Source: Nitrospira sp.
Lineage (GTDB): Bacteria > Nitrospirota > Nitrospiria > Nitrospirales > Nitrospiraceae
NCBI GenBank assembly: GCA_015709715.1
Contig: CP054184.1
Location: forward strand, 4,077,001-4,141,000
Direction of reading: 5' to 3'
DNA: 64,000 bases
Both the position numbers and the translations under genes were made by a program. Position 1 is the first letter of the stretch. Each line of letters starts with the position of its first letter. The notes beneath the pieces were generated by a model that was not told where the DNA came from, made no database searches, and saw only the letters and a list, made by a program, of their open reading frames with translations. This document shows, piece by piece, positions 18,470-55,941 of the stretch.

Positions 18470-18847
18470 ACTGAATCTGGGCACTCCCGATCGCGGCAAA
18501 ACCCCTCAGGACAAGGGATTGTAAGGAATCGAGACCTACCGAAATTAGCGATGTACAGAATTGTGCGAATGTGGAGCGAGCAGAGAGAGTCGGAGGGCGA
18601 GGTGGTCAAACCTAAAGCCTGAATGTCATCCAGTATAGATGTGTTTTTGCTGGGTTTTTGCCATCTCGATGGAACCTTTTTATTCGCCGATCAATTTTTG
18701 GCTCGTATATTTACCAGGCGATACGGGGCACAAATGTGCCAAACAGAATGTGGCGATGCTCCAAAGAAAAGCACAATTGTCCGATGTGCATCGGGACTCG
18801 AGCCATGTAAAACGAAGCCCGCTTACTGGGACTCAGAGGGCGAAGCT

Positions 18848-19411
18848 ATGTCGATACTCTCTCCGCCGGAACTTCAATTCGCCGATGCCTCATCGCGACT
18901 GGTCTCTACGGACGCTCACTGGTATGCCGTCAGCACCAGATCACGTCATGAGAGGTCAGTCCGCGATCGGCTCGCGGCCATCGGGGTCGAACCGTTTCTT
19001 CCCCTGACGAAAACTCTGCGCCAGTGGTCAGACCGAAAAGTCTGGACGGAGATGCCGCTTTTCAGCGGGTACTGCTTCGCAAGATTTTCGCTCCGCGATA
19101 GTCTGTCGATTCTCCAAACTCCTGGTGTCGTCAGAATTGTAGGGTCGATCGGGCCGGAATCAGTGCCGGACGAAGAGTTGATGGCGTTGAAGGCCTTATC
19201 TACCAGCGAGCGCGCGATGGAGCCTCATGAGTATTACATCGAGGGAGCGTGGGTGGAAGTCATCCGAGGTCCCTTGGCCGGCATTCGAGGGCAGCTGATA
19301 CGACGGGCTGGAGCTCATGGTTTAGTCATTCGGGTCCATCTCATACAGCAGGCGGCCGCCGTACATATTGATATGACCGAAGTGCGGATTCTTGATGGCG
19401 TGGCCTCCTGA
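18848..19411 (+). CDS. NusG/RfaH-like transcription antitermination factor
   Basis: From the ATG at 18848, preceded by GAGGG at a 7-nt spacing, the product is 187 residues. The N-terminal NGN domain starts with HWYAVSTRSRHERSVRDRL and includes FLPLTKTLRQWSDRK and PLFSGYCFARFS. The C-terminal KOW motif is GAWVEVIRGPLAGIRGQLIRR. Such NusG paralogues (RfaH, UpxY, LoaP types) travel with RNA polymerase and prevent early termination in very long polysaccharide operons. It is the first gene of the locus, the typical place for an operon-specific antiterminator. The frame is open upstream to about 18623, but the added residues do not match the family. Confidence 0.88.
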   Translation: MSILSPPELQFADASSRLVSTDAHWYAVSTRSRHERSVRDRLAAIGVEPFLPLTKTLRQWSDRKVWTEMPLFSGYCFARFSLRDSLSILQTPGVVRIVGSIGPESVPDEELMALKALSTSERAMEPHEYYIEGAWVEVIRGPLAGIRGQLIRRAGAHGLVIRVHLIQQAAAVHIDMTEVRILDGVAS

Positions 19412-21340: not shown

Positions 21341-21370
21341 TGCCATGAATGGATGGTCAAAGGAGACAGT

Positions 21371-23566
21371 GTGAACGCAAAACCTATGGTATTGGATGAA
21401 GCCGAGCAAACACTCAGCGAGTATGCGACCGCCTGTTGGCGACATCGCTGGTTGATCGTGCTCGTGGCCGGATGTTTTGGGTTCGGGGCGGCGGTCTGGT
21501 CTTTTCTCCAAGTTCCGGTCTATCAGGCCAAGGCCACCGTGGTGATCGATAATCCGACCCCTGGTGGGTTGGACAAGGATAAGTCGTTCTACCCGGACAA
21601 TAGTCCCGAGTATTTTCAAACCCATTTTGAGTTGATGAAGAGCCATTTTGTGCTGCAGCGGACGGCCAGGTTGCTGGATTTGGCGGAGCGCGACGAGTAT
21701 CAACCCAAGCCCTCCGTGATCAGGCAATTCGTCAAGTCGCTCATGCCGGAATCGGTACTCGCGTTCGTGCGGCCGCCCAAGAAAGAGGAGGTCGATCCCG
21801 CCGACGACGCCGAGGAAGCCTTGATCAAGCAGTTTGCCCAGGACATCGAAATCATGCCGATCCGCGGTGCGCGGTTGGCGCATGTCACGGCCAATGCCAT
21901 CGAACCGGAACTTGCCGCCCAGATCGCCAACACGCTCGTGTCGGTTTATATCGAGCGTAATCAGGAACTCAGCGCCAATTCCAAGGAACAGGCTGCGCAA
22001 TGGTTCACGACCCACCTCGAAGAGTTGCGGCAAAAGGTACAGAACTCCCAGCAGGCACTCTATCTGTTTCGAGCCAAGCACGGGTTGTTGACCGGCGAAG
22101 AGCGAAAATCGGTCGCGGCCCATACATTGGCGGAGTTGAATTCACAGTTGGTCAAGACCGAGATGGCCAAGGCCGAAGCACACTCGCGGTTTCTGCAAAT
22201 TCGATCGGTGCTGAATCCGCAAGGAGCGGGAACGGCGGGGTTAGATTGGTCGAAGCTGGATTCCCAGATTCAGGTCCTGAATTCGCCGTTGATACAAACC
22301 CTCCGTGCGCAAGAAATCACCGTGTCGGCGCAGGTGGCGGAGCTGTCGGAAAAGTATGGGCCGCTCCATCCCAAATTGGCACATATGAAGGCAGAGTTAC
22401 AGGACCTGCGGCAGCGGACTCAGCAAGAGGTCCAAAAGATCTACGATTCCGTCAAACATCAATATGACATGGCCTTGGCGCAGGACAAAGCCGTGAAGGA
22501 GGCGATCACTCGGTACAATACCGATAAGATCCGTCTGGAGCAGAACGAAATCGAGCACAGCATGCTGGAACGTGATGCCGAAACGAGCCAGCATCTGTAC
22601 GACGTCTTCCTCAAGGCGACGAAGGAAACGGATCTCTCCTCGGGGATGCGGGCCAACAATGTGTACTTGGCCGATCCGGCCGCTCCAAGTTCGGTCCCCT
22701 CCAAGCCGCGGACCAAGCTCAACATTATGTTGGGGCTTTTGGCTGGATTGATGAGCGGGGTCGGGTTGGCGATATTCGTCGAAGGCCGAAGCAAGAAACT
22801 CATGGCGCCGGCCGACGTCGAACGTTATCTCCCAAATGTGTCTTTACTCGGGGTCGTGCCGCGACTCTCTAAGGCCGCAGCCCAAAAGAAAGCCTTGGCG
22901 CCGCCCAACGCGTTGACACCGGTCGCAGAAAGTTTCCGCATCATTCGCACCAGTCTTCTCTTGTCGAACCCCGACATGCTGCCCTCTCGCATCTTAATCA
23001 CGAGTCCCGGGGAAAACGAAGGCAAGACGACCCTGGCGGTCAACTTGGCGATGGCGATGGCTCAGTTGGAGGATACGCAGGTCGTTCTCATCGACGTGGA
23101 CTTCCGCAACCAACAAATTCATCCCCTCTATGAAGTGGGGAGTCCCGAGCAGCCGCCCAAAGGATTGGGACATCTCTTGCGAGGCGAGGCGAGCTTGGCC
23201 GACGTCGTGCACCAGACGTTCGTCAGCAACCTTTCCGTCATCCCGCACGGAGGGCGTCCGGCGAATCCGACGGAATTGCTCCACTCCAAATCCATGGCCC
23301 AATTGCTCAACTGGGGAGCCACCAATCGCTATCACATCATCCTAGACTGTCCGCCGGTCCTGCCCATCGCCGATGCCGCGGTGCTGGCCTCCAAGGTGGA
23401 CGGCGTCTTATTGGTCGTGAGTGCGGGAGAAACGACCCGCGATGCGTGCCACCTCGCCATACAACGCATCAAGCAAGCCGGCGGGCGGCTGCTGGGGGTG
23501 GTGATGCAGAAGGCGCCCGTGGCCGACTCGCCCTATTACTACGGGGCCTACCAGCAGCAGCGTTGA
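21371..23566 (+). CDS. Polysaccharide co-polymerase / tyrosine autokinase (Wzc-like)
   Basis: The GTG at 21371 has an ideal AAAGGAG 5 nt upstream and gives 731 residues; an ATG at 21353 is in frame but has no such site. The N-terminal Wzz domain has a membrane helix near residue 27 and long periplasmic coiled coils (about 190-420). A second membrane helix (KLNIMLGLLAGLMSGVGLAIF) is near residue 460. The cytoplasmic BY-kinase domain has Walker A SPGENEGKTTLA (Lys552), a VVLIDVDFRNQ Walker A' motif, LDCPPVLPIADA and a C-terminal tyrosine cluster (YYYGAY). It controls chain length and export of the polymer through autophosphorylation cycles. No cognate phosphatase is in the window. Confidence 0.92.
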   Translation: MNAKPMVLDEAEQTLSEYATACWRHRWLIVLVAGCFGFGAAVWSFLQVPVYQAKATVVIDNPTPGGLDKDKSFYPDNSPEYFQTHFELMKSHFVLQRTARLLDLAERDEYQPKPSVIRQFVKSLMPESVLAFVRPPKKEEVDPADDAEEALIKQFAQDIEIMPIRGARLAHVTANAIEPELAAQIANTLVSVYIERNQELSANSKEQAAQWFTTHLEELRQKVQNSQQALYLFRAKHGLLTGEERKSVAAHTLAELNSQLVKTEMAKAEAHSRFLQIRSVLNPQGAGTAGLDWSKLDSQIQVLNSPLIQTLRAQEITVSAQVAELSEKYGPLHPKLAHMKAELQDLRQRTQQEVQKIYDSVKHQYDMALAQDKAVKEAITRYNTDKIRLEQNEIEHSMLERDAETSQHLYDVFLKATKETDLSSGMRANNVYLADPAAPSSVPSKPRTKLNIMLGLLAGLMSGVGLAIFVEGRSKKLMAPADVERYLPNVSLLGVVPRLSKAAAQKKALAPPNALTPVAESFRIIRTSLLLSNPDMLPSRILITSPGENEGKTTLAVNLAMAMAQLEDTQVVLIDVDFRNQQIHPLYEVGSPEQPPKGLGHLLRGEASLADVVHQTFVSNLSVIPHGGRPANPTELLHSKSMAQLLNWGATNRYHIILDCPPVLPIADAAVLASKVDGVLLVVSAGETTRDACHLAIQRIKQAGGRLLGVVMQKAPVADSPYYYGAYQQQR

Positions 23567-48867: not shown

Positions 48868-50910
48868 ATGTTGACACTGTCTCGATTCTCCAATCCGAAG
48901 TGCCTGTTCGTGTTGTTGGTGCACATCGCCTTGATGGGAATTGCCAATTACGCGGCCTTCTGGCTCCGCTTCGACGGCCAGATCCCGCCATGGGCGATGG
49001 AAATATTCTTGCGCACCCTGCCGCTCCTGATCTGCGTGCGTCTCATGATGTTCATCCCGTTCCGGCTGTACGGTACGGTCTGGCAGTACACCAGCCTCTG
49101 GGACCTCCGCAACATCGTCGGGGCCACGGCCAGCAGCACCGTCGTATTCTTCCTGGCCACCCGCTATGTGCTCGGACAGACCGCTTATCCCCGGACGGTC
49201 TATGTGATCGATGCGTTGCTCCTGATCGTCTTGACCGGCGGGATGCGGGTCGCCCGACGTCTCGGCAATCCCTTGTCCACGACGTCCGATATGAAGCGCG
49301 TGTTGATCTATGGAGCGGGCGATGCGGGGGAGCGGCTGGTGCGCGAACTGCGACAGAATCGAGCCTTTGGGTATCACCCGGTCGGTTTCATCGACGACAA
49401 CCGTCGCAAAATCGGCCAGCGCATCCATGGCGTCAAGGTCTTGGGCACGCGGGCGGAGCTCTCCAGCATGATGACGCGCGTCAAGCCCGACGCCATCCTG
49501 ATCGCGATGCCGAGCATCGGCGCCGCGGCCATCAGGGAAATCGCCAAGGCGTTGCTGGCGTACAACGTGTCGATCAAGATTCTACCGGATCTGAGCGTCT
49601 TGTTGGACGGCAAGTCCGAGGTCAACCAACTTCGCAATCTGTCGGTGGAGGATTTGCTGCACCGGCCACGCGTCGATCTGGATCGATCCCTGACGGCGGC
49701 GTTGCTCAAGGGCAAACGCGTGCTGGTGACCGGGGCGGGCGGGTCCATCGGGTCCGAACTCTGCCGGCAGATTGCGTCGTATGAACCGGAATGCCTGGTG
49801 CTTTTCGAACGTTATGAGAATGGGCTCTATGCGATCCACAGTGAACTGAGTCCAGGCACGGCGCCGCCCGCCATTTATCCGGTGATCGGCGATGTGACCG
49901 ATGCGGATCGGCTGCGCTCGACCATGGAGGCCTATCAGCCGCAGATTGTGTTCCATGCGGCCGCGCATAAGCATGTGCCCTTGATGGAGTACAACCCCTG
50001 TGAGGCGGTGAAGAACAATGTCATCGGCACACGCACGGTGGCCGGCCTGTCGGAGGAATTCGGTGTCGAACGCTTCATCATGATTTCGACCGACAAGGCC
50101 GTGCGCCCGTCCAGCGTCATGGGCGCGACGAAGCGGGTGGCGGAACTGATCATTCAGGACATGGCTCGGACCGGCAAGACGAACTTCATCACGGTCCGGT
50201 TCGGCAACGTGTTGGGCAGCAACGGCAGCGTGGTACCGCATTTTCTGCAGCAGATCAAACGGGGCGGCCCGGTGACCGTGACCCATCCGGAGGTGCAGCG
50301 GTATTTCATGTTGATTCCGGAAGCGGTCGAGCTGGTCTTGCAGGCCGCCTCGCTGGCGCATCCCGGCGCCGTCTACGTGCTGGAAATGGGCGAACAGGTC
50401 AAACTCCAGGACCTTGCACGGCACTTGATCAGGTTGTCGGGGTTCGTGCCGGATCAAGAGATCCCGATCAGCTTCACCGGCCTCAGGCCGGGCGAGAAGC
50501 TGGCCGAAGAACTGGTGGGGCCCGATGAAACCGTGACGGCGTCGCCCCTGAAAGAGATCTTGTCCGTCCGATTGAACGAGGTCCCCGAGCGCGAGGTGCT
50601 TCGGACCGCGATCGCCGACCTGGAGGAAATGGCCTATCTGCAGAATGCTCCTGAAGTCTTGGCCCGGATCGGCTTGCTGGTGCCGGCGTTTCAGCCCGCC
50701 CAGCGCGATGCGGTGCTGGCGGTCGAACGGGATTGGCTCGGCACTGAGGGCGAACAGGAATCCGCGAACCACGAAACACGAGGTGGGGCAGATGGTCACA
50801 CGCTTTCTACTGGGGTTGTTCGGTCTCTGGCTCGTCGTCGGATTCGGCGCGACGTCGCGGGCGGGGTCGTTGTCTCCCCAGCCGGAACCCTATCGGATCG
50901 GCCCGAATGA
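48868..50910 (+). CDS. Nucleotide-sugar 4,6-dehydratase, membrane-bound (PglF/WbpM-like)
   Basis: A protein of 680 residues. Four N-terminal membrane helices are followed by a CoA-binding-like Rossmann domain (VLIYGAGDAGERLVREL, near residue 147). The catalytic SDR domain starts at VLVTGAGGSIGSEL near residue 286. Its active site ISTDKAVRPSSVMGATKR has Met418 and Lys422 where ordinary SDRs have Tyr and Lys, as in PglF/WbpM. It converts UDP-GlcNAc to UDP-4-keto-6-deoxy-GlcNAc. The C-terminal 40 residues are Arg-rich, unlike the family, and are read in the 119-nt overlap with the following export gene. No clear Shine-Dalgarno precedes the start. Confidence 0.9.
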   Translation: MLTLSRFSNPKCLFVLLVHIALMGIANYAAFWLRFDGQIPPWAMEIFLRTLPLLICVRLMMFIPFRLYGTVWQYTSLWDLRNIVGATASSTVVFFLATRYVLGQTAYPRTVYVIDALLLIVLTGGMRVARRLGNPLSTTSDMKRVLIYGAGDAGERLVRELRQNRAFGYHPVGFIDDNRRKIGQRIHGVKVLGTRAELSSMMTRVKPDAILIAMPSIGAAAIREIAKALLAYNVSIKILPDLSVLLDGKSEVNQLRNLSVEDLLHRPRVDLDRSLTAALLKGKRVLVTGAGGSIGSELCRQIASYEPECLVLFERYENGLYAIHSELSPGTAPPAIYPVIGDVTDADRLRSTMEAYQPQIVFHAAAHKHVPLMEYNPCEAVKNNVIGTRTVAGLSEEFGVERFIMISTDKAVRPSSVMGATKRVAELIIQDMARTGKTNFITVRFGNVLGSNGSVVPHFLQQIKRGGPVTVTHPEVQRYFMLIPEAVELVLQAASLAHPGAVYVLEMGEQVKLQDLARHLIRLSGFVPDQEIPISFTGLRPGEKLAEELVGPDETVTASPLKEILSVRLNEVPEREVLRTAIADLEEMAYLQNAPEVLARIGLLVPAFQPAQRDAVLAVERDWLGTEGEQESANHETRGGADGHTLSTGVVRSLARRRIRRDVAGGVVVSPAGTLSDRPE

Positions 50911-51565
50911 TGTCGTGCGGATCCAGGTCTATGGGGAAGACGATCTCACCGTCGAGCGGAAAGTGGGAGGAGACGGGAAGATCGACTATCCGCTGCTCGG
51001 ATTGATCCACGTCACGGGGCAGACCACGGAGGCCGTGCAGGCCGATCTGACCGCGCGGCTGGGTGCGGGCTACTTGAAACAGCCCCGCGTCACCGTGTCG
51101 ATCACGCGACACCGCAATTTCTATGTCAGCGGCGAGGTGAAGGGGGCCGGCGGATATCCCTATGAGCAGGGTCTCACGGTTCAGAAGGCGATCAGCATGG
51201 CCGGAGGATTCACCGAGCGGGCCAGCAAGACCGATATCCGGGTCGAGCGCCATCGGGAGAGAGGCGGCGTCGAAATTCTCGATGCCGGAGCGACCACCAC
51301 GATTCTCCCGGATGATCTCATTTTGGTCGCAGCCGCTCAGCGCTTCTACGTGAATGGGGAAGTGCATAAGCCGGGAGGCTACGGATACGAGCGCGGCCTG
51401 ACGATCCATATGGCCATTACCATGGCGGGAGGGTTTACCGAGAAGGCATCGAAGAAACCCAAGGTCCTTCGGATCGTCGACGGGAAGGAACAGACGTTCG
51501 AATTGTCGTTGAACGCGCCTGTGTTGCCCGACGACATTATCGTGGTGTCGCAACGATTCTTCTGA
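50792..51565 (+). CDS. SLBB polysaccharide export protein with two SLBB units
   Basis: A protein of 257 residues with a signal peptide (FLLGLFGLWLVVGFGATSRAG). The Poly_export domain starts YRIGPNDVVRIQVYGEDDL; two SLBB units follow (FYVSGEVKGAGGYPYE and FYVNGEVHKPGGYGYE). There is no lipobox cysteine and no long C-terminal amphipathic helix, so it is unlike enterobacterial Wza. It ends in QRFF, as do its two larger neighbours. It probably forms part of a periplasmic or outer-membrane export ring for the polymer. Its first 119 nt lie inside the dehydratase gene. Confidence 0.88.
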   Translation: MVTRFLLGLFGLWLVVGFGATSRAGSLSPQPEPYRIGPNDVVRIQVYGEDDLTVERKVGGDGKIDYPLLGLIHVTGQTTEAVQADLTARLGAGYLKQPRVTVSITRHRNFYVSGEVKGAGGYPYEQGLTVQKAISMAGGFTERASKTDIRVERHRERGGVEILDAGATTTILPDDLILVAAAQRFYVNGEVHKPGGYGYERGLTIHMAITMAGGFTEKASKKPKVLRIVDGKEQTFELSLNAPVLPDDIIVVSQRFF

Positions 51566-51631
51566 GGCGACGCGCTCGTCCGGATACGACGCCACTGGCT
51601 CACCACCTGGAACGTGGAGGCGAGGCAGCGT

Positions 51632-53965
51632 ATGGGTACACGAGTCATCTCCTGTTGGCTGGCGGTGCTCCTGCTGGTCCTGACGACATGGCACGCAGTC
51701 GCAGGAGAGACGAAAGGGCCGCCGGCCGGCTACCGCATCGGCCCCAACGATGTGATCCGGATCCAAGTGTTCGGCGAAGAAGACTTGTCGGTGGAGGCCC
51801 GAGTCAGCGGAGACGGCAAGTTAGATTATCCGCTACTGGGGGTGTTGCAGGTCGGCGGGAAGACCACCCAGGATTTGCAGGCGCTGCTGACGAAGCGATT
51901 GTCCGCAGGGTACGTGCGATCACCCAAAGTCACGGTCTCCATCGCCCGCCATCGCAACGTGTATGTCAGCGGCGAGGTCAAGACGCCGGGGGGGTTTCCC
52001 TTCGAAGACGGCCTGACCGCGCAGAAGGCCGTGACCATGGCCGGCGGCTTCACCGACAAGGCGGTGCGCAACGGGCTGACCATCACGCGCCGTTCGGAGG
52101 GGCACGAACAGACCTTCAACGCGCCCCTGACCACGCCCTTGTTGCCCGACGATATGCTCGTCGTGGCGCAATTGCAGAAGTTTTATCTGATGGGCGAGGT
52201 GATGCGCCCAGGTCCCTATCCCTTCGAAGAGCAGCTGACCGCGAAAAAGGCCGTGTCGTTCGGCGGTGGCTACACCGACAAGGCTGACAAGAAGACTCTC
52301 AAGGTGACGCGCGTCACGGAGAGCGGTGCTCAAACCATCGCGATCGGCCCGGATGACCTGATCTTGCCCAGCGACATCCTGGCGGTCGGCAGTCATAATT
52401 ACAAGGTCTACATCAGCGGTGAGGTGCGGGCTCCGGGAGCCTATCCCTACAGCGAAAATATCAGCCTGCAGAAGGCCCTCACCCTGGCCGGCGGGGTGAC
52501 GGAGAAAGCCGACCGGAAGGAGATGACCGTCCGGCGCGTCGTAGGGGGGCAGGAGCAGACGCTGGTGCTGCCGCTGGAGGCTGCCGTTCAGCCCGAAGAC
52601 CTCATTGTGGTGCGTGAGGGACAGAAAGTTTACGTCACGGGGGAGGTGAAGACGCCGGGCCGCTACGCGTATGAAGCGGGGGCGACGGTGCAGCGGGTGC
52701 TGACGTTGGCGGGTGGGGTGACGGAGAAGGCGGAGGCGAGCGTCATCAAGCTGACGCGGATAACGGCGGCGGGGGTGGAGACGAGGGTCGTGGCGTCGGA
52801 CGCGGCGGTGGTACCGGAGGACATCATCCTGGTGGTGCCGAAGAGCGATCAATTTTATATCAGTGGCGAAGTCAAGACGCCCGGTAGCTACGCGCACAAG
52901 GAGGGGCTGAGCCTGCAGAAGGCGTTGGCGATGGCGGGGGGGGCGACGGAGAAGGCGGACCGGCAGGCGCTGACGGTGCGGCGGGTGGTGGGGGGGCAGG
53001 AGCAGACGCTGGTGTTGCCGCTGGAGGCGGCGGTGCAGCCGGAAGATCTGATCATCGTGCGGGAGGGGCAGCGGGTGTATGTCACGGGGGAGGTGAAGAC
53101 GCCGGGGCGGTACCCGTTCGAAGCGGGGGCGACGGTGCAGCGGGTGCTGACGTTGGCGGGCGGGGTGACGGAGAAGGCGGAGGCGAGCGTCGTCAAGCTG
53201 ACGCGGACGACGGCGGAGGGGGTGGAGACGACGGTCGTGGCGTTGGACGCGGCGGTGGTACCGGAGGACATCATCCTGGTGGTGCCGAAGAGCGATCGGT
53301 TTTATGTGAGCGGGGAGGTCAAGAATCCGGGGGGCTACGCGCACAAGGAGGGGCTGAGTCTACAGAAGGCGTTGGCGATGGCCGGGGGCGCGACGGAGAA
53401 GGGGGATGTGGAGCGGGTGCAGGTGGTGCGGATCGTGAACCACCAGGAAGAGCATGTGGCGGTGACGCTGGAGTCGCTGGTGTTGCCGGAGGATACGATC
53501 GTGGTGGCGGAGCGGCAGAAGGTGTATGTGACGGGCGAGGTGCGGACGCCGGGGCGGTATACGTATGAGGCGGGGCTGTCGGTGCAGAAGGCGGTGAGCA
53601 TGGCGGGCGGGTTCACGGAGAAGGCCGACAAGCTGGACGTGCGGGTGGAGCGGCGGGGGGCGGGCGGGGTGACGACGGTGCCGGTGGAGCCGCAGGCGGT
53701 GCTGCAGCCGGAGGACCTGGTGGTGATCCCGCAGGCGCGGCGGTTCTATGTGAACGGGGAAGTGAAGAAGCCGGGGGACTTTTGGTATGAACGGGGGCTG
53801 ACGCTGCACATGGCCATTACGATGGCCGGGGGGTTCACGGAGAAGGCGTCGAAGACGCCGAAGGTGTTGCGGCGGGTGAACGGGCAGGAGCGGACGGTGG
53901 AGGTCGCGTTGGATGCCCCCATCCAACCCGACGACATCATCGTCGTCGTCCAACGCTTCTTCTGA
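51632..53965 (+). CDS. Large SLBB-repeat polysaccharide export protein (nine SLBB units)
   Basis: A protein of 777 residues: signal peptide, Poly_export domain (YRIGPNDVIRIQVFGEEDL) and nine consecutive SLBB units, each opening with a (V/F)Y-x-x-GEV-x-x-PG pattern about 75 residues apart. Wza-type proteins usually have two or three such units. A two-unit block of 149 residues is tandemly duplicated inside it (52465-52911 and 52912-53358). From about 52,660 the codons are almost all G-ending. The last 1,054 bp are nearly identical to the next gene. It presumably builds an unusually long export channel or scaffold. GGAGG lies 11 nt before the ATG. Confidence 0.88.
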   Translation: MGTRVISCWLAVLLLVLTTWHAVAGETKGPPAGYRIGPNDVIRIQVFGEEDLSVEARVSGDGKLDYPLLGVLQVGGKTTQDLQALLTKRLSAGYVRSPKVTVSIARHRNVYVSGEVKTPGGFPFEDGLTAQKAVTMAGGFTDKAVRNGLTITRRSEGHEQTFNAPLTTPLLPDDMLVVAQLQKFYLMGEVMRPGPYPFEEQLTAKKAVSFGGGYTDKADKKTLKVTRVTESGAQTIAIGPDDLILPSDILAVGSHNYKVYISGEVRAPGAYPYSENISLQKALTLAGGVTEKADRKEMTVRRVVGGQEQTLVLPLEAAVQPEDLIVVREGQKVYVTGEVKTPGRYAYEAGATVQRVLTLAGGVTEKAEASVIKLTRITAAGVETRVVASDAAVVPEDIILVVPKSDQFYISGEVKTPGSYAHKEGLSLQKALAMAGGATEKADRQALTVRRVVGGQEQTLVLPLEAAVQPEDLIIVREGQRVYVTGEVKTPGRYPFEAGATVQRVLTLAGGVTEKAEASVVKLTRTTAEGVETTVVALDAAVVPEDIILVVPKSDRFYVSGEVKNPGGYAHKEGLSLQKALAMAGGATEKGDVERVQVVRIVNHQEEHVAVTLESLVLPEDTIVVAERQKVYVTGEVRTPGRYTYEAGLSVQKAVSMAGGFTEKADKLDVRVERRGAGGVTTVPVEPQAVLQPEDLVVIPQARRFYVNGEVKKPGDFWYERGLTLHMAITMAGGFTEKASKTPKVLRRVNGQERTVEVALDAPIQPDDIIVVVQRFF
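52465..53358 (+). repeat. In-frame tandem duplication of a 447-bp two-SLBB module
   Basis: The module at 52465-52911 is repeated at 52912-53358 with a period of exactly 447 bp (149 codons). The encoded segments both run from SLQKAL-AGG-TEKADR through TLVLPLEAAVQPEDLI and VTGEVKTPGRY to AAVVPEDIILVVPKSD, with scattered substitutions. The seven-unit neighbour gene has only one copy, which accounts for the difference of two SLBB units. Confidence 0.75.
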
Positions 53966-53967
53966 GC
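52914..53967 (+). repeat. 1,054-bp direct repeat, copy 1 (3' end of nine-unit SLBB gene)
   Basis: Copy 1 of a direct repeat; copy 2 is at 54888-55941, a constant offset of 1,974 bp. It runs from within an SLBB unit to two bases past the stop codon. By reading, the only difference I find is G at 53896 against A at 55870, which is silent. Confidence 0.9.
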
Positions 53968-54061
53968 ACCCTTGTGCCCTTGCCGAGTGAGTGGAGAGAG
54001 AGGCAGAATGGGACGGCAGTCCGGCCGTTCCTATCGTTCGAATCGGAGGTAAAAGTCGTTT

Positions 54062-55939
54062 ATGGTCAAGCGGGTCCTCTTGTGCTGGGTCAACGCCGTG
54101 ATGGTGCTGCTCCTGGCTTTCGGTGTGGCGGCGGCGGAGTCCGGGTACCGTATTGGGCCTAACGATGTCATTCGAATCCAGGTGTATGGTGAGGACGATT
54201 TGACCCTTGAGAGTCGGGTCGGCGGGGACGGCAAGCTGAATTATCCGCTGTTGGGCATGTTACAGGTCGGAGGACAGACCACCGAAGATCTGCAGGCCGA
54301 TCTCACCAAGCGCCTCGCCGCGGGCTATGTGCGGTCGCCCAAGGTGAGCGTCACCATTGTTCGCCATCGCAACGTCTATGTCAGCGGCGAGGTCAAGGCG
54401 CCGGGCGGCTTTGCGTTTGAAGACGGGTTGACGGTGCAAAAGGCCATTACCATGGCCGGCGGCTTCACCGAGAAAGCGGCCAAGAACACCCTGAGCATCA
54501 CACGCCGGAAGGCCGAAAAGGAAGAGCTGCTGTCGGCTCAGCTCCATACCCCCCTCCTGCCGGACGACACGATCGTCGTGGGACAGTTACAGAAGTTTTA
54601 TCTGATGGGCGAGGTGACGCGTCCCGGTCCGTATCCCTATCCTTCGGAGGATCAATTGACGGCCAATAAGGCCATTTCACTTGCGGGGGGCTTCACGGAC
54701 AAGGCGGAACGACAGGTGCTCAAGGTGACGCGGGTCACGGAGAGCGGCGCCTTGACGGTGGCGATCGGACCGGACGACGTGGTGCTGCCGAACGACATCC
54801 TGGCGGTGAGCACGCAGAATCGAAAGTTCTACATCAGCGGTGAGGTGCGCACCCCCGGCGCCTATCCGTTCAACGAGACCATCAGTTTGCAGAAGGCGTT
54901 GGCGATGGCGGGGGGGGCGACGGAGAAGGCGGACCGGCAGGCGCTGACGGTGCGGCGGGTGGTGGGGGGGCAGGAGCAGACGCTGGTGTTGCCGCTGGAG
55001 GCGGCGGTGCAGCCGGAAGATCTGATCATCGTGCGGGAGGGGCAGCGGGTGTATGTCACGGGGGAGGTGAAGACGCCGGGGCGGTACCCGTTCGAAGCGG
55101 GGGCGACGGTGCAGCGGGTGCTGACGTTGGCGGGCGGGGTGACGGAGAAGGCGGAGGCGAGCGTCGTCAAGCTGACGCGGACGACGGCGGAGGGGGTGGA
55201 GACGACGGTCGTGGCGTTGGACGCGGCGGTGGTACCGGAGGACATCATCCTGGTGGTGCCGAAGAGCGATCGGTTTTATGTGAGCGGGGAGGTCAAGAAT
55301 CCGGGGGGCTACGCGCACAAGGAGGGGCTGAGTCTACAGAAGGCGTTGGCGATGGCCGGGGGCGCGACGGAGAAGGGGGATGTGGAGCGGGTGCAGGTGG
55401 TGCGGATCGTGAACCACCAGGAAGAGCATGTGGCGGTGACGCTGGAGTCGCTGGTGTTGCCGGAGGATACGATCGTGGTGGCGGAGCGGCAGAAGGTGTA
55501 TGTGACGGGCGAGGTGCGGACGCCGGGGCGGTATACGTATGAGGCGGGGCTGTCGGTGCAGAAGGCGGTGAGCATGGCGGGCGGGTTCACGGAGAAGGCC
55601 GACAAGCTGGACGTGCGGGTGGAGCGGCGGGGGGCGGGCGGGGTGACGACGGTGCCGGTGGAGCCGCAGGCGGTGCTGCAGCCGGAGGACCTGGTGGTGA
55701 TCCCGCAGGCGCGGCGGTTCTATGTGAACGGGGAAGTGAAGAAGCCGGGGGACTTTTGGTATGAACGGGGGCTGACGCTGCACATGGCCATTACGATGGC
55801 CGGGGGGTTCACGGAGAAGGCGTCGAAGACGCCGAAGGTGTTGCGGCGGGTGAACGGGCAGGAGCGGACAGTGGAGGTCGCGTTGGATGCCCCCATCCAA
55901 CCCGACGACATCATCGTCGTCGTCCAACGCTTCTTCTGA
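54062..55939 (+). CDS. Large SLBB-repeat polysaccharide export protein (seven SLBB units)
   Basis: A protein of 625 residues with a signal peptide (LLCWVNAVMVLLLAFGVAAAES), a Poly_export domain (YRIGPNDVIRIQVYGEDDL) and seven SLBB units. It corresponds to the previous protein minus one 149-residue pair of units. Its last 351 codons are identical in sequence to the end of the neighbour apart from one silent difference that I can see. GGAGGT lies about 10 nt before the ATG. Like its neighbours it lacks a lipobox and ends QRFF. The near-identity means a recent duplication or ongoing gene conversion. Confidence 0.88.
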   Translation: MVKRVLLCWVNAVMVLLLAFGVAAAESGYRIGPNDVIRIQVYGEDDLTLESRVGGDGKLNYPLLGMLQVGGQTTEDLQADLTKRLAAGYVRSPKVSVTIVRHRNVYVSGEVKAPGGFAFEDGLTVQKAITMAGGFTEKAAKNTLSITRRKAEKEELLSAQLHTPLLPDDTIVVGQLQKFYLMGEVTRPGPYPYPSEDQLTANKAISLAGGFTDKAERQVLKVTRVTESGALTVAIGPDDVVLPNDILAVSTQNRKFYISGEVRTPGAYPFNETISLQKALAMAGGATEKADRQALTVRRVVGGQEQTLVLPLEAAVQPEDLIIVREGQRVYVTGEVKTPGRYPFEAGATVQRVLTLAGGVTEKAEASVVKLTRTTAEGVETTVVALDAAVVPEDIILVVPKSDRFYVSGEVKNPGGYAHKEGLSLQKALAMAGGATEKGDVERVQVVRIVNHQEEHVAVTLESLVLPEDTIVVAERQKVYVTGEVRTPGRYTYEAGLSVQKAVSMAGGFTEKADKLDVRVERRGAGGVTTVPVEPQAVLQPEDLVVIPQARRFYVNGEVKKPGDFWYERGLTLHMAITMAGGFTEKASKTPKVLRRVNGQERTVEVALDAPIQPDDIIVVVQRFF

Positions 55940-55941
55940 GC
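54888..55941 (+). repeat. 1,054-bp direct repeat, copy 2 (3' end of seven-unit SLBB gene)
   Basis: Copy 2 of the direct repeat that starts at 52914. The boundaries are sharp: the sequences differ immediately before 54888 and after 55941. The repeat covers five SLBB openings and the common C-terminus. Confidence 0.9.

Follow-up and report, generated by a model that had tools for sequence, protein, structure and literature searches.

How do two neighbouring genes come to be almost identical over their last thousand bases and clearly different before them? The question is raised by a window of 64,000 nucleotides (G000:C1:4077001-4141000) of a Nitrospira genome, G000, which consists of one contig of 4,156,062 bp and for which the nearest named genome we found is Candidatus Nitrospira defluvii (FP929003.1). 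A sequence-only reading of this DNA had reported a near-identical repeat of 1,054 bp with a single silent difference, and an exact comparison confirms both. Positions 52914-53967 and 54888-55941, on the forward strand and offset by 1,974, differ at one mismatch (53896 G, 55870 A), which makes the codons ACG and ACA, both Thr. What that reading overlooked is the base composition of the block, which sets it apart within this genome.

The repeat joins two of three OPX genes that Pfam identifies in tandem on the forward strand, and that we call A, B, and C. Gene A (50792..51565; the open frame begins at 50645, and the likely start is 50792) encodes a Poly_export domain and 2 SLBB domains, gene B (51614..53965, 783 aa, with an alternative ATG start at 51632) Poly_export and 9 SLBB, and gene C (54062..55939, 625 aa) Poly_export and 7 SLBB. 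Gene calls are mechanical throughout. The three genes are the end of a long same-strand polysaccharide cluster with a MurJ-like flippase (23446), glycosyltransferases, and Wzy_C (27291) among its members, and a CapD-type epimerase (48718) lies directly 5′ of gene A. The first gene of the cluster is NusG-like (18623-19411), a candidate antiterminator of the long operon with the OPX genes at its end. Gene A is not homogenised with B or C; its last unit is 73% identical to the last unit of B.

The tract starts within SLBB 5 of B and SLBB 3 of C. Its edges are sharp: identity falls to ~60% just upstream of 52914, and is wholly lost 2 bp past the stop codon. A search of the whole genome finds only these two full-length copies. 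The 5′ halves had been described as diverged, and indeed the heads (Poly_export and SLBB 1-2) have 73% DNA identity and a dS of ~1.2. Unequal crossover, which had been offered together with gene conversion as the origin of the repeat, we reject: the sequences that follow B and C are unrelated, and both the number of genes (3) and the SLBB numbers (2/9/7) are the same here and in N. defluvii. It had also been proposed that recombination between the copies would delete or duplicate 1,974 bp and produce a fused gene. The change in dosage stands, as the predicted deletion loses C and leaves B, and the reciprocal product has an additional C. The new fusion protein does not, because both tails translate to the same amino acid sequence, and wherever in the tract a crossover falls, its product is B or C again, unchanged. 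Both genes are kept in both species.

Gene conversion, on the other hand, is backed more strongly than had been claimed, since it recurs over the same block in two lineages. The B and C blocks of N. defluvii have 4 mismatches in 1,055 bp, with a left edge 1,056 nt before the end of the stop codon (1,052 in G000), and the gene order CapD-A-B-C-periplasmic-binding-protein is conserved in both species. Between the two species, the block has diverged by 14.5%. In a quartet test using one sequence per species, the heads group by gene (alternatives, AU p<1e-4), whereas the tracts group by species (delta lnL 509; AU p<1e-4). The dS of the heads is 1.2-1.4 between paralogs and ~1.0 between orthologs, which together with the conserved synteny indicates a duplication older than the species split. 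So, on these alignments, both lineages have homogenised the same block, and recently relative to that split. As far as sequence comparison can tell, the identity of the tails is the result of recurrent gene conversion (concerted evolution), neither an artefact nor a single event.

Plain dS misleads in such tracts. The raw ortholog dS of the tract is 0.46 in comparison with ~1.0 for the heads, and resembles half the head divergence. Slower evolution or an inter-species transfer of the tract, either of which that value could suggest, was dropped after correcting for composition: the corrected fourfold distances are equal, 0.97-1.07 for the tract and 0.86-0.92 for the heads. Between species, a fraction 0.30 of the fourfold sites of the tract differ, where unrelated sites with this composition would give 0.31; these sites are near saturation.

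Homogenisation within SLBB arrays recurs. A third Nitrospira genome, G020, has an OPX gene (L040:8413-10905) with three tandem 447-bp modules of two SLBB each and one mismatch among them. The modules are G-rich, with G at a fraction 0.69 of the fourfold sites in comparison with 0.40 for the remainder of the gene.

We use that fraction, G4, as our measure of composition. The background for G000 is 0.38 over 809 genes, and G4 in the tract is 0.88 in both copies. In a sample of 1,357 genes (~40% of the genome), the two highest values belong to B and C, and all others are at or below 0.57. Moreover, the step in composition coincides with the edge of identity in three of the four genes. The identity edges are at 351-352 codons before the stop, and the change points in G content are at 347 (C of G000), 352 (B of N. 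defluvii), and 350 (C of N. defluvii). The exception, which counts against a bias of conversion, is B of G000. Its change point is at 442 codons before the stop, and the G-rich zone begins 91 codons upstream of the tract, with an extension (52629..52913, forward strand) that takes in SLBB 4 and the start of SLBB 5 and lies within an internal 447-bp repeat found by TRF. With fourfold sites near saturation and the excess present in both species, the G excess appears to be maintained and not merely inherited.

Is such an excess also found in other duplicates? The two tuf copies of G000 are 16 kb apart and have 0 mismatches in 1,206 bp, with identity that stops at the gene ends. Their G4 is 0.80, while that of the unduplicated fusA and ribosomal protein genes beside them is 0.18-0.47. 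The two nxrB copies, at 3.43 and 3.46 Mb on the same chromosome arm (~31 kb apart) and in opposite orientation, are identical over 1,292 bp with a G4 of 0.72, and the nxrA copies of the same operons are 85% alike with a G4 of 0.39-0.47. For N. defluvii and G020, G4 is 0.60 and 0.78 in tuf, and 0.56 and 0.70 in nxrB. We also observe that in the nxrAB clusters of three Nitrospira genomes (L118/L119, L120/L121, and L122/L123) nxrB is 99.2-100% identical and G-rich, with identity that stops at the nxrB gene ends, and the adjacent nxrA is just 82-85% alike and not G-rich. Across Nitrospirales, tuf exceeds its flanking frames in G4 in 22 of the 22 readable genomes (0.55-0.89 vs. 0.32-0.49). Outside the order, three genomes with two copies have a tuf G4 of 0.45, 0.25, and 0.33. 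Two genomes in which one copy is seen have 0.56 and 0.58, above the flanks; this counts against the bias, although the comparison is weak, since a single copy may be a collapsed pair.

Scanning the sampled part of the genome for G-rich windows provides a blind test. After B and C, the next patch (0.78) is in an NRPS gene, and a subsequent blastn search finds two more copies of it, 98-99% identical over 1.7 kb. The three copies of this adenylation-domain block are at G000:C1:653654-655345 (L140), 670323-672051 (L192), and 676883-678574 (L191, a locus for which we find no clean frame across its whole length), and their G4 is 0.65 inside the block vs. 0.44 outside. The same approach fails for an 893-aa multi-SLBB OPX gene (L064:6756-9434; G000:C1:1506756-1509434), where the 3′ end has 0.75 G in 60 fourfold sites. 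We find no partner for it in the genome, which counts against the bias. A weaker patch in a PurL-like gene (L144:7724-9970; 0.72 in 60 fourfold sites), with no known partner, also counts against the bias and may be due to chance. Controls for recent copying are IS-like elements with 99.8-100% identical copies (L057:9538-10723, with copies in L069, L137, and L182; L147:14918-16199, with a copy in L186). Their G4 is mild, 0.48-0.50, as expected if their identity stems from recent transposition. A probable prophage stretch with a P22-like portal protein (L138:3721-7701) has a fairly high G4 of 0.54-0.57. Windows of 60 sites do not exceed 0.70 in the samples of G001, a genome with the same locus as FP929003.1, or 0.68 in those of G020. 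Our list of duplicates is a partial one, drawn from the ~40% of the genome that was sampled.

The excess has a direction. Over the four families, A/G sites have G at 84% in comparison with a background of 60% (odds ratio 3.5), and C/T sites have C at 69% in comparison with 57% (odds ratio 1.7, not significant for OPX and NRPS combined). Sites are non-independent trials, and the very small Fisher p-values are to be taken as effect sizes. At fourfold sites A+T drops from 0.23 to 0.01-0.05, and C also drops, from 0.39 to 0.11-0.31; G rises twofold. A skew between replication strands was considered as the source and rejected: the fourfold skew by strand is only ~0.1-0.2 genome-wide, and the identical nxrB copies are in opposite orientations, which indicates that the bias tracks coding sense and not replication sense.

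We think it probable, with a good deal of confidence, that B and C are tandem OPX paralogs of long standing, and that repeated conversion, biased to coding-strand G, keeps their final ~1,052 bp alike. Non-reciprocal recombination between the two copies would homogenise the tails again and again. Its right limit would be the loss of homology at the stop codon, and its left limit the point from which the paralogs, ~60% alike, are too diverged to recombine. Such limits could keep the edges of the block in place through speciation, as the pattern in the two species suggests. Over many rounds, biased conversion would turn degenerate sites into G, chiefly at the expense of A and C, with far less change from T to C. 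A fixed strand polarity of conversion, perhaps set by transcription, might combine with unequal mismatch repair, for example of G-G against C-C, to give this result. From the sequences we infer G-biased, strand-asymmetric gene conversion as the cause of the composition, and the several families together suggest a bias in the way these bacteria copy one duplicate onto another. The more general proposition is one on which we are evenly divided: that in Nitrospirales conversion between duplicates is strand-asymmetric, follows coding sense, and drives degenerate sites to coding-strand G, such that third-position G may serve as a detector of long-lived partners.

Could the G come instead from selection on codons, for expression or for mRNA structure, and not from the conversion process? 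This seems to us unlikely, but it is the alternative to take most seriously. Both tuf and nxrB belong to the most strongly expressed genes, and C at C/T sites is also somewhat higher in them (0.70 and 0.75). Selection of this kind would not readily explain why the switch occurs at the conversion edge inside single reading frames, or why fusA, the ribosomal protein genes, and nxrA, from the operon of nxrB itself, have the ordinary values given above. NRPS and OPX genes, in addition, are not expected among the top-expressed.

Causality could also run the other way, with G-rich coding strands provoking conversion when R-loops or quadruplexes break the DNA, and thereby keeping G-rich duplicates identical. 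R-loops do form on G-rich non-template strands, and the coding strand of B has two quadruplex-like motifs, at least one of them inside the tract. The G-rich single-copy starting material is missing, however, given that none of the sampled genes other than B and C exceeds 0.57, and the homogenised repeats of N. defluvii and G020 are without such a quadruplex motif. We consider this reversal improbable. Ordinary, symmetric GC-biased gene conversion would account for the loss of A+T at fourfold sites, but the gain of both G and C that it implies is not found: C is lost, and a strong A/G shift stands next to a weak C/T shift. We give it just as little credence. Finally, that a single tail was copied into both genes by the assembler, although our comparison rests on assembled sequences, is barely credible, as each copy has its own flanks and the same arrangement, with different mismatches, is present in the separately assembled FP929003, which strongly disfavours the artefact that the sequence-only reading had asked to have checked.

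Pfam reports for A, B, and C an N-terminal Poly_export (PF02563) followed by SLBB (PF10531), and neither Wza_C (PF18412) nor GfcC (PF06251) at the C terminus (E 0.001). The predicted structure of B, at a low pTM of 0.26, ends in a C-terminal strand without a terminal helix. A BBP2_2 barrel gene (PF10082; 19895..21340, forward strand), a candidate outer-membrane partner, is in the same cluster ~30 kb upstream of the OPX genes. A Wzz/GNVR/AAA polysaccharide co-polymerase (21353..23566, forward strand) is a candidate inner-membrane partner. By domain content, A-C fit the definition of class 3 OPX proteins given in PMC9603273. They share with that class Poly_export followed by SLBB, the lack of Wza_C and GfcC, and the presence in the cluster of a beta-barrel gene, here a candidate partner. 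The first set described there has 1-7 SLBB, while B has 9, and here, unlike there, we have three tandem paralogs that differ in length. By analogy with the OPX family, A-C would be periplasmic conduits with a separate outer-membrane barrel. The B and C proteins are probably tall conduits of a Wzx/Wzy-type exopolysaccharide system, and their inner-membrane-facing heads would differ while the outer end is common to both. The Nitrospira periplasm is described as large (PMC3600790, PMC13049253), and one idea is that 7-9 SLBB rings may bridge it, for which the model of B, with its pTM, is too weak to provide inter-domain distances.

The debate over a bias in bacterial gene conversion is an old one, and the usual tests of it are genome-wide correlations, which are weak. 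In the present genome, a very large strand-specific shift is seen in several duplicates that are unrelated to one another; single-copy neighbours and a diverged sister gene from a shared operon act as internal controls. A shift of this size makes the question directly testable. Moreover, the composition of one copy could reveal its conversion partners, with one blind success (NRPS) and one failure (the 893-aa SLBB gene). A partial search of the literature turned up no account of conversion tracts in bacteria that are biased to G on the coding strand.

Long-lasting concerted evolution of prokaryotic duplicates is documented, with tuf as an example (PMC6053082) and kinetics measured for tuf in Salmonella (PMC5485169). 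The OPX pair shares with the tuf type paralogs that are closer within than between species, tract ends that are the ends of homology, and old duplicates in fixed contexts. Unlike in the tuf type, homogenisation is confined to the 3′ part of two repeat-domain genes, and an internal edge is retained. The OPX segment also has the coding-strand G excess; the main text of PMC6053082 mentions neither GC content nor Nitrospira. GC-biased gene conversion has been described for palindromes (PMC8981503) and is debated in bacteria (PMC2936529, PMC6867656). Our tracts share with it that recombining copies drift away from A and T, and differ from it in that fourfold C is also lost and coding-strand G is gained, a strand-asymmetric pattern.
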